From the NCBI GenBank assembly GCA_005883695.1, contig VBBV01000095.1, positions 1 through 17,417 of the forward strand: DNA of 17,417 bases, given 5' to 3'. The position numbers were made by a program, and so were the translations under genes. This document shows, piece after piece, positions 4,098-15,840 of the stretch. The DNA comes from Candidatus Bathyarchaeota archaeon. Lineage in GTDB: Archaea; Thermoproteota; Bathyarchaeia; 40CM-2-53-6. Below the pieces are notes generated by a model, which was not told where the DNA came from, made no database searches, and was given only the letters and a program-made list of their open reading frames with translations. Each line of letters begins with the position of its first letter. Within the stretch, counting starts at the first letter, position 1.

Positions 4098-5158
4098 GTG
4101 GTGGAGAAAAATTGGTTGTCACAACAGGCTCCCTGGAATAAGTCACAGAAATTGCTCGTCAAGCTCGACGAGGAAACAGACCCGGCGTTAGGCTGTCCGC
4201 CAGAGAAGAGGACGATTAATCAGCACATCCGGTTCGGTCTGATCAACCTGGATAAGCCCTCAGGCCCATCAAGCCACGAAGTCGTCGCATGGGTCAAACG
4301 TCTCCTTCGGTTGAACCACGCTGGCCACGGTGGAACTCTAGAGGTCCTCTTCAGGGCCGGAGTAATCCAATGGTCACCGGCGTTCTTCCGCTCGCCCTAG
4401 AAGACGCTACCAAGACGATCCAGGCATTCCTTCTCACCGGGAAGGAGTACGTCTGCCTCATGACAATGCACGGCGACGTCGACCAGACTAAACTCCGCGG
4501 TGTACTGGAGGAATTTGTCGGCGACATATTCCAGAAACCCCCAGTGAGAGCCGCGGTCAAGAGGGAAGTCCGGAAAAGAACAATCTACTCGATCGACGAT
4601 GTGGAAATTGAGGGAAGACAGGTTCTATTCCGCGTCGCCTGTCAAGCAGGAACCTACATCCGGAAACTAGTTTACGATGTCGGAGAAGTTCTCGAAGTAG
4701 GCGCTCACATGCGAGAACTCCGCAGAACAAGATCCGGATCCTTCACTGAAGGAGACATACACTCCCTCTACGATATGCTCAAACTCTCTCAGGCCTCCCC
4801 GGACGAGAGGGAAGGGATGGTCCGGCAAATCGTTAGACCGATGGAGGACGCATTCGAGTATGTTCCGCGAATCTACATTCGCGACTCCGCTGTTAGTTCA
4901 ATATGTCACGGTGCTGACCTTGCTGTTCCTGGGATTGTCAAGCTAAGCGAGGGAATACGCCCCAAGACCGCAATCGCGCTGTTTACGCTCAAAGGAGAAC
5001 TCGTCGCATTATCAAGAGCGCTCATCGGAACCGAACAGATAATGAAGGACGAGCGCGGGCTCGCTGCTAAAACGGTTAGGGTGATTATGCCGACTGATAC
5101 ATATCCCAAACTGTGGAAACCGAAGCATCGTCGTTCCGTGGTAACCCAGTTCAATTGA
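4098..5158 (+). CDS. cbf5: tRNA/rRNA pseudouridine synthase Cbf5 (dyskerin/TruB family), spliced from two exons
   Basis: Catalytic subunit of the H/ACA RNP, which makes pseudouridine in rRNA and tRNA. Exon 1 is 4098-4341 and exon 2 is 4365-5158, separated by a 23-nt intron (4342-4364). Removal joins two different frames and yields 345 residues, normal for archaeal Cbf5. The spliced catalytic motif reads [20 protein letters not shown], with catalytic Asp82 built from the exon junction codon G/AT. N-terminal signature: [24 protein letters not shown] domain fills about residues 250-340 ([38 protein letters not shown]). Without splicing, exon 1 would run into a stop at 4398-4400 and lose the catalytic Asp, so the gene is intact only if spliced. 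Starts at GTG 4098 or 4101. Confidence 0.9.
4342..4364 (+). other. Archaeal pre-mRNA intron in cbf5 (23 nt, BHB type)
   Basis: Hand pairing gives a canonical bulge-helix-bulge. The 4-bp central helix is exon bases 4336-4339 (CTCT) with intron bases 4359-4362 (GGAG). The 5' bulge is 4340-4342 (AGA), cut after G4341; the 3' bulge is 4363-4365 (TAA), cut after A4364. The inner helix is 4343-4347 with 4354-4358 (GGTCC/GGGCC, one G-U) closing a 6-nt loop. The outer helix is weak: T4331-G4333 with C4367-A4369, plus A4335-T4366. The cut sites restore the Leu-Asp-Pro codons exactly. Confidence 0.85.
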
Positions 5159-6538: not shown

Positions 6539-6574
6539 AGCCTGTGGTCCTTGCGGGCCGCGTGGGTTCAAATC

Positions 6575-6589
6575 CCACTCCCGGCGCCA
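6575..6589 (+). repeat. Putative att site 1: 15-bp tRNA-Ser 3' end
   Basis: CCACTCCCGGCGCCA, the last 15 bases of the tRNA gene, is repeated exactly and in the same orientation at 7273-7287. Such target duplications of a tRNA 3' end are the usual footprint of site-specific integration. Confidence 0.65.
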
Positions 6590-8079: not shown

Positions 8080-8193
8080 TGGTGCGGGAGGTGGGATTCG
8101 AACCCACGAACCCCTACGGGACAGGCGCCTCAGGCCTGCGCTTCCAAGACCCGTGATCGAAGGGTCTCTTTGACCTGGCTTGGCAACTCCCGC
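8080..8193 (-). tRNA. tRNA-Leu(GAG) with a D-arm intron and encoded CCA
   Basis: Read on the minus strand: acceptor GCGGGAG pairs with CTCCCGC, discriminator A (Leu type), and encoded CCA at 8082-8080. The spliced D arm has GCC/GGC with loop AAGCCAGGTCAAA. Anticodon stem CAGGC/GCCTG holds the loop CTGAGGC with anticodon GAG. The long variable arm TCCCGTAGGGGTTC and T arm GTGGG-TTCGAAT-CCCAC are typical of tRNA-Leu. Exons are 8193-8168 and 8141-8080. The mature length is 85 nt plus CCA. Lies divergently from rpl15. Confidence 0.92.
8142..8167 (-). other. tRNA-Leu intron (26 nt) in the D stem, about position 23/24
   Basis: Numbering from the tRNA 5' end: central helix 21-24 (TCAA) with 47-50 (TTGG, one G-U). 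The 5' bulge is 25-27 (AGA), cut after 26; the 3' bulge is 51-53 (AAG), cut after 52. Inner helix GACCC/GGGTC (28-32 with 42-46) with a 9-nt loop. Excision restores the GCC/GGC D stem exactly. Confidence 0.85.
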
Positions 8194-14910: not shown

Positions 14911-14998
14911 CTCTCCCGAAATCTAGCCTCCGGAATATAGATCCTGCTAAAGGAGTATTTGGCGCTGGCTAGAATGGCACGAAAGGATTTCCACAAGG

Positions 14999-15008
14999 CT
15001 TATTTTGA
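14999..15008 (+). promoter_or_regulatory. Possible TATA box for the G1 peptidase gene
   Basis: CTTATTTTGA lies about 42 nt before the ATG at 15046, which would leave a leader of roughly 15 nt. It falls after the in-frame upstream ATG at 14974, which argues for the later start. Confidence 0.4.
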
Positions 15009-15045
15009 TTCCATTTTCCCAGAAAATGCTCGAGAAAAATTGTCA

Positions 15046-15840
15046 ATGCGACATTTCTTCACAACAACCCTTGCAGCACTCGCTATTGTCTTCCTATCAA
15101 CTCTCAGCTTTGCCGCGGCTCTTCCAGCACCATCAATGAGTGTAGCGCCACGAATTCACGATGGAAGCGTTAGCAGTACAAACTGGAGCGGATTCGCCGT
15201 GACAGGCTCTGCCGGATCCGTCAGCGACGCAAAGGGATCATGGGTGGTCCCGACGATACAGGGCAATTGTCCGAGCACTAATCAGTACTCTAGCTTCTGG
15301 GTCGGAATCGACGGGTACAGCTCAGGCACTGTGGAGCAAACAGGTACCGATTCTGACTGCCAGAACGGCGTCCCCACGTACTATGCTTGGTACGAGTTCT
15401 TCCCGCATCCATCGTTTCTCATCAACGGCATCTCTGTCCATCCTGGAGACGTGATGTCTGCAGAAGCACATGCGTTGGGCAACGGAAAATTCACCGTCAG
15501 CATTTCTGACGCTACGACTGGCCAGAGCTTTAGCACCTCGTCAACAGTTCACCGGGCGCAACAGTCCTCAGCAGAATGGATTGCCGAGGCGCCCTCGAGC
15601 AGCGGTGGTATCCTCCCGCTTGCAAACTTTGGGACAGTCAAATTCGGCCTCGACAATACAGGAGTGAGCAGCACTTGCTATGCTACGATCAGAGGGACCA
15701 CCGCAGCCTTTGGAACGTTCGGCTCGAACGTTCAAAAGATTACGATGGTGACCAGCGGCGGAGCGACAAAAGCCTCACCCTCGAACCCGTCCAGCGACAG
15801 CACTAGCTTTTCAGTTACCTGGGTAAGTTCTGGTCCCTAA
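15046..15840 (+). CDS. Secreted glutamic peptidase, G1 (eqolisin) family
   Basis: Predicted acid-acting extracellular protease. From ATG 15046 the product is 264 residues with a signal peptide (MRHFFTTTLAALAIVFLSTL, cleavage near AAALPA). The catalytic domain begins at TNWSGFAV (45-52), contains GSWVVPTIQG and FWVGIDGYSSGTVEQTG, whose Gln98 fits the catalytic glutamine (Gln53 of scytalidoglutamic peptidase), and SSAEWIAEAPS, whose Glu177 fits the catalytic glutamate (Glu136). Further G1 features: YYAWYEFFP and VHPGDVMSAEA. Cys75 and Cys105 could form a disulfide. Almost no propeptide is present between signal and domain, unlike fungal enzymes. A Ser/Gly-rich tail ends the chain. It probably degrades environmental protein. 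Confidence 0.9.
   Translation: MRHFFTTTLAALAIVFLSTLSFAAALPAPSMSVAPRIHDGSVSSTNWSGFAVTGSAGSVSDAKGSWVVPTIQGNCPSTNQYSSFWVGIDGYSSGTVEQTGTDSDCQNGVPTYYAWYEFFPHPSFLINGISVHPGDVMSAEAHALGNGKFTVSISDATTGQSFSTSSTVHRAQQSSAEWIAEAPSSSGGILPLANFGTVKFGLDNTGVSSTCYATIRGTTAAFGTFGSNVQKITMVTSGGATKASPSNPSSDSTSFSVTWVSSGP

Follow-up and report, generated by a model that had tools for sequence, protein, structure and literature searches.

The window considered here, meaning the whole stretch of 17,417 nucleotides that was analysed, comes from a Candidatus Bathyarchaeota archaeon and contains on its forward strand a cbf5 gene, in which two open frames are separated by an insertion of 23 nt at positions 4342-4364. The last base before the insertion is G4341 and the first base after it is 4365; when 4342-4364 are excised, the two frames fuse into a single Cbf5 of 345 amino acids, and the coordinates that an earlier, sequence-only reading had assigned to this joint proved to be exact. 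The elements of the gene are the following.

4098, + strand: GTG, putative start codon of exon 1, the first start codon after a stop
4098-4341, + strand: cbf5 exon 1; its frame alone matches TIGR00425 (89 bits over residues 15-82) and Pfam DKCLD
4342-4364, + strand: predicted BHB intron of 23 nt; its removal joins the frames exactly, and the site is common to 18 of 18 genus mates
4365-5158, + strand: cbf5 exon 2 including the stop codon, with the rest of TruB_N, TruB_C_2, and PUA

The spliced product of 345 residues scores 414 bits with TIGR00425, above the NCBIfam cut-off of 238, and 422 bits with NF003280 (curated cut-off 242), for which the downstream open frame alone gives 320 bits. The DKCLD, TruB_N, TruB_C_2, and PUA domains are all found in it, and its alignment with the solved Cbf5 2aus is gapless across the joint. 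Without splicing, the frame of exon 1 is shifted and runs into a stop at 4398-4400, leaving a product of 100 amino acids. The insertion lies between the first and second bases of the codon of the catalytic Asp, and its removal restores GAT. The neighbouring genes, encoding ribosomal proteins S4 and S13, an RNA polymerase subunit, SecY, and cytidylate kinase, are ordinary archaeal ones. Elsewhere in the window, the minus strand at 8083-8193 holds a tRNA gene (40.8 bits in Rfam, not detected by ARAGORN) whose D-arm region contains a long insertion and whose variable arm is long, with an anticodon that by eye is GAG (Leu); a sequence at 6561-6578 (+ strand) that weakly matches the tmRNA T-arm (12.3 bits, below the cut-off) may terminate a further tRNA gene, one rich in introns; and a Peptidase_A4 family protein is encoded, in an archaeon, at 14959-15840 (+ strand; 127 bits).

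Bases 4342 and 4365 are identical, and excision of 4343-4365 would give the same product. The sequence by itself thus allows a shift of the joint by one base to the right, and the cut sites 4341/4342 and 4364/4365 were chosen because they agree with the register of the BHB fold, whose predicted parts are listed below.

4332-4334, + strand: outer helix, 5' strand GGA, pairing with 4366-4368 (UCC); 129 of 154 unique junctions have a canonical third pair
4336-4339, + strand: central helix, 5' strand CUCU, in the Thr and Leu codons, pairing with 4359-4362; canonical in 603 of 616 cells (four pairs in each of 154 unique junctions)
4340-4342, + strand: 5' bulge AG/A, predicted cut after 4341; AG/A in 129 of 154 unique junctions
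4343-4358, + strand: inner helix 4343-4347/4354-4358 with a 6-nt loop, read from the sequence
4359-4362, + strand: central helix, 3' strand GGAG, intronic, pairing with 4336-4339
4363-4365, + strand: 3' bulge UA/A, predicted cut after 4364, in the register set by the central helix

The core described in the sequence-only reading, a 3-nt bulge, a 4-bp helix, a 3-nt bulge, and a 5-bp inner helix, is present, but the word "textbook" applied to it has to be withdrawn: A4335, opposite the 3' bulge, is unpaired or, in the minimum-energy fold, pairs with U4363 to leave a bulge of 2 nt. Owing to this base, the window's junction departs from the canonical hBHBh' form, in which 3-nt bulges flank a 4-bp helix and no further base is left unpaired, and is a relaxed BHB with both cuts predicted between the second and third bulge residues. 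One U-G pair occurs in the central helix and another in the inner helix, to which the minimum-energy fold adds one more pair. Two of the three outer pairs are fixed by the Gly and Pro codons, and the A that ends the 3' bulge in all 154 junctions, as part of the Asp codon, is forced by the construction of the search. Folding energy was rejected as evidence for the intron, being unexceptional in the window (z of -1.23, with 30 of 200 shuffled sequences folding as well); across the 154 unique junctions, the minimum-energy fold has none of the four central pairs in 30.

A pre-mRNA intron in crenarchaeal cbf5, 16-44 nt long and with spliced cDNA, was reported at the same site by Yokobori et al. (2009, PMC2738675), through which we also cite Watanabe 2002 and Yoshinari 2006; according to PMC7714728 (2020), additional BHB introns of this type had been reported from archaea only once, in crenarchaeal cbf5 mRNA. 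The window's intron shares with the one of PMC2738675 the gene, the codon, the phase, the cut register in a relaxed BHB, and the length range. The sequence-only reading was right that cbf5 introns are known from Crenarchaeota, and the comparison of positions that it had proposed shows agreement. Its doubt whether the position or the lineage had been described is settled in two ways, as the position was already published, whereas the lineage is absent from Table 1 of PMC2738675. The window's intron is therefore a further case of the published one. It differs in that its host is a bathyarchaeon, in that it is known from sequence and the crenarchaeal one from cDNA, and in an intron 5' part that in many cases is agg and not agc. 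Searches among open-licence papers, with passages of PMC7714728, PMC12397907, and PMC13149111, turned up no earlier record of the intron from Bathyarchaeia, from Terraquivivens, or from Asgard archaea. The sequence-only reading also suggested that splicing may control H/ACA output; this idea is not new, because a role of the intron as a negative regulator was already proposed by the authors of PMC2738675.

Among named records, the window best matches Candidatus Bathyarchaeota BA_9, whose exon 2 is 98% identical. Next come Bathyarchaeota or Crenarchaeota records from samples of the "13_1_40CM" type, a label that we take to denote soil, so that the nearest named genomes would be those of soil Bathyarchaeota; the nearest genome compared has 20% of the window's sampled 31-letter words. 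In the nearest genus, 18 of 18 genomes have 22-23 nt at the cbf5 site. For a wider comparison, the distance between the codons of the motifs GHxGTL-G and AY-P was measured by a script. Around the nearest genome, matches were found in 114 of 121 genomes and 106 loci were obtained, eight with weak matches being left out; with the window added, 65 of these 107 loci of its class have 16-38 nt at the exact phase and 42 have none. Among 80 named loci, 39 have the insert and 39 lack it, and the remaining two gave 16 and 17 nt. Three further genome sets (40, 61, and 60 genomes) contributed 30 loci each, and 40 loci were picked by family, among the matches listed, from other Thermoproteota families. 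A search of 196 Asgard genomes gave a match in 193, from which the best 30 loci and eight chosen ones were read. Overall, 375 of 385 loci were readable, the ten others belonging to the class round G293 (three) and the phylum round G486 (seven). They reduce to 321 unique sites, 161 with the intron and 160 without, distributed as follows.

Window's class: intron 74, none 42
Named loci not already counted: intron 24, none 32
Class round G187: intron 23, none 7
Other Thermoproteota families: intron 30, none 7
Asgard phylum: intron 10, none 23
Class round G293: intron 0, none 27
Phylum round G486 (record titled Methanosarcinales): intron 0, none 22

The splicing endonuclease of the class round G187 has as its closest structure 2cv8, which we take to be a Sulfolobus tokodaii protein, and this class therefore serves as a positive control, presumably carrying the published intron itself. 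Its intron lengths agree with those of PMC2738675. The class round G293 consists of ammonia oxidisers, as archaeal AmoA was found in five of the six genomes tried. In 19 of 23 other Thermoproteota families, at least one locus among the 40 picked from the matches listed has the intron. Carriers include Terraquivivens yellowstonensis (Nitrososphaerota, Wolframiiraptoraceae in NCBI) and, within Asgard, records titled Jordarchaeia, Jordarchaeum, and Freyarchaeota together with one titled Sigynarchaeota that groups with them. Other Asgard genomes also carry it, for example G493, whose cbf5 lies on a contig of 1.1 Mb, which argues against stray contigs. Five of the eight chosen Asgard loci were picked for a short open frame, and the Asgard proportion is no estimate of frequency. 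Contamination may explain two of the apparent Asgard cases, which were therefore discounted: L247, which nests in Bathyarchaeia and whose genome G564 has a second, intronless cbf5 (L391), and L381, whose genome G531 has a second copy (L392). Both were kept in the 321-site counts and in the tree of 318 rows, and dropped from the later tree and from the re-tests of introns with lengths divisible by three.

Intron lengths range from 13 to 76 nt, with the mode at 23 nt (28 of 161). The window's 23 nt, considered very short in the sequence-only reading, is thus an ordinary length, also in view of the 16-44 nt of PMC2738675. The two candidate introns of 13 nt, L294 and L307 of family f47, lie below the published minimum of 16 nt, and in these genes Gln replaces His before GGTL. 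Other peculiarities were seen among the genomes. Eight of them that are at least 90% complete (G053, G058, G106, G114, G116, G404, G413, and G418) gave only weak matches and no cbf5, through an assembly gap or some other cause. In the window's class, L105 (genome G043) and L100 (G119) have a large in-frame insertion in Cbf5 after TYIRKLC that resembles a LAGLIDADG intein, the motif being recognised by eye; L105 has both this insertion and a cbf5 intron of 22 nt.

An assembly error or a decayed, frameshifted cbf5 might be suspected from a single metagenomic contig with an insertion that breaks the frame, but it has practically no chance of being the explanation and is refuted as a general account by independent genomes, since the 18 genomes of the nearest genus carry their 22-23 nt in this position with loops that differ in sequence, the family profile is kept in both exons, and the helix letters covary.

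The covariation links exon to intron bases. Against the 603 canonical cells of the central helix, controls in which the partner was slid by one or two bases gave 334-396. The Thr codon ends in a synonymous wobble base that is free in the protein. Over the 154 unique junctions, it forms with its intron partner C-G in 103, U-A in 41, and A-U in eight, with two failures; these 152 canonical pairs compare with a maximum of 121 in 10,000 shuffles. The next central position is canonical in 150 of 154, and the maximum in shuffles was 144. In pairs that are independent on a tree, the Thr wobble position agrees in ten of ten, and the next position agrees in six, with none against and two without difference. 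Moreover, A is the last base of the Leu codon preceding the joint in 148 of 161 genes with the intron versus 45 of 160 intronless genes; on the tree, this A gave on average 7.7 pairs in the expected direction, 0.4 in the opposite one, and 3.9 without difference. Since the exon wobble bases covary with intron bases and the Leu-codon A is enriched, the RNA fold shapes silent positions of the exon. The comparison across species thus supports splicing of the cbf5 intron, and with the central helix and bulges in register it agrees with the prediction that both cuts fall after the second bulge base.

Programmed ribosomal bypass or frameshifting across the insertion would also restore the frame, and, according to PMC2738675, the first crenarchaeal cases were interpreted by other researchers as frameshifting. 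We rejected it as very improbable: the inserts span 13-76 nt and all three length classes at a single phase, the BHB is conserved with its cut register at the joint, the helix covaries, and PMC2738675 reports spliced cDNA of crenarchaeal cbf5, whose intron occupies this site.

The machinery expected for splicing is encoded by close relatives of the window. Of eight genomes of the genus that were searched, seven encode two PF01974 (endonuclease) proteins and the last encodes one; RtcB was found in 18 of 18 genomes searched. In G001, the strong PF01974 protein, aligned to 3p1z_B, keeps the Tyr, His, and Lys that are presumably the catalytic residues of the splicing endonuclease. In the weak protein, Phe stands at the aligned position of the Tyr, the His is missing from its aligned position, and a Lys is retained. 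Cutting of relaxed BHBs outside tRNA has been linked to hetero-oligomeric endonucleases (PMC2738675). Endonuclease gene content was rejected as the cause of intron presence or absence, as the intronless G067 and G099 (Bathyarchaeia) and G477 (a Thorarchaeota record) also have two PF01974 proteins; the enzyme is therefore at most necessary and no marker of the intron. In two genomes (G006:C11 and G018:C2), the match to RtcB is split in two within one open frame of 1006 amino acids, which suggests an RtcB intein.

On the observed gene structure, site, conservation, and covariation, together with the enzyme genes of the relatives, we consider the following account highly probable. In the window's bathyarchaeon, cbf5 would be transcribed with its 23-nt BHB intron; a splicing endonuclease made of a catalytic and a non-catalytic subunit would cut after the second base of each bulge, and RtcB or another ligase would join the exons, restoring the GAT codon of the catalytic Asp, whereas unspliced message would yield only the fragment of 100 amino acids. 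The intron most likely descends from an ancestor that predates the split of Bathyarchaeia and Thermoproteia and may have been lost many times later. The BHB motif and the route through EndA and a ligase would be shared with archaeal tRNA introns, from which this intron differs in residing in an mRNA with its central helix partly within codons. Its position, the covariation, and the presence of endonuclease genes in near relatives support the main proposal of the sequence-only reading, that a BHB intron splits the catalytic Asp codon.

How old the intron is was approached on two trees, where the minimum number of state changes is 23 (318 rows, FastTree) and 18 (91 rows, bootstrapped). A real intron gained repeatedly at one hot spot, in Thermoproteota and in separate Asgard lineages, is a serious competitor to one ancient intron, and we give it somewhat less than an even chance. 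A two-rate model fits the 318-row tree better when the root lacks the intron (logL -83.66 vs -90.63), and the introns of Asgard archaea vary in length and letters and occupy several separate places in the trees. However, one site and one phase are used everywhere, the 5' bulge letters are identical in the same 129 of 154 junctions, and on the 91-row tree, where the central deep nodes are supported at 66 or below, a model in which the root had the intron and only losses followed scores almost as well (-51.52 vs -49.97). Ancestral states also speak against repeated gain. With the two-rate model on the 318-row tree, the ancestor of the window, a Sulfolobales-like row, and a Nitrososphaeria row has a P(intron) of 0.999, and on the 91-row tree the ancestor of all rows of the window's class, the class round G187, and Nitrososphaeria has 0.997, at a node with support of 66 that also includes most Asgard rows. 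The published account (PMC2738675) dates the gain to the ancestor of Desulfurococcales and Sulfolobales, which is probably too late; the frequent occurrence of the intron beyond both orders makes a gain confined to that ancestor difficult to maintain.

The introns themselves bear on what failure of splicing would cost. The earlier statement that splicing is obligatory for an active enzyme is supported by all 161 introns read, 132 of which shift the frame and 29 of which hold an in-frame stop. Among 152 unique introns, the 29 of length divisible by three all have a stop in the frame of exon 1, compared with 53 of 123 others; in the two other frames of the same 29 introns, stops occur in 11 and seven, and with shuffled interiors 13.2 of 29 are expected to have one. 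The difference persists when suspect or selectively fetched loci are dropped (28 of 28 vs 51 of 119, Fisher p 2.4e-9), with one intron per genus (median p 1.2e-5), and with one intron per family (p 0.0064). A strict tree-controlled sign test, which is underpowered, gave on average 4.8 pairs for, 0 against, and 14.2 without difference (median p 0.0625). A stop in every such intron suggests selection against read-through, the target of which may be a full-length but dead Cbf5 made from the unspliced message. In short introns of the eukaryote Paramecium, lengths divisible by three likewise carry in-frame stops; the splicing machinery there is a different one, and we know of no nonsense-mediated decay of the Paramecium kind in archaea. 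We suggest only tentatively, as a rather unlikely combination, that one ancient intron, present in the ancestor of Thermoproteota and at least part of Asgard, was lost often and kept under a rule of no read-through, with dead Cbf5 being able to occupy H/ACA RNPs.

The distribution of this intron is of importance both for annotation and for the history of the gene. Crenarchaeal cbf5 genes have been mis-called, as noted in PMC2738675, and the same may apply to cbf5 in many metagenome genomes. Carriers in Bathyarchaeia, in many Thermoproteota families, and in several Asgard lineages point to a probable origin before the ancestor of Desulfurococcales and Sulfolobales. Finally, the stops in introns of length divisible by three provide a first testable statement of the cost of the intron, namely that the unspliced message would be translated and its read-through selected against.
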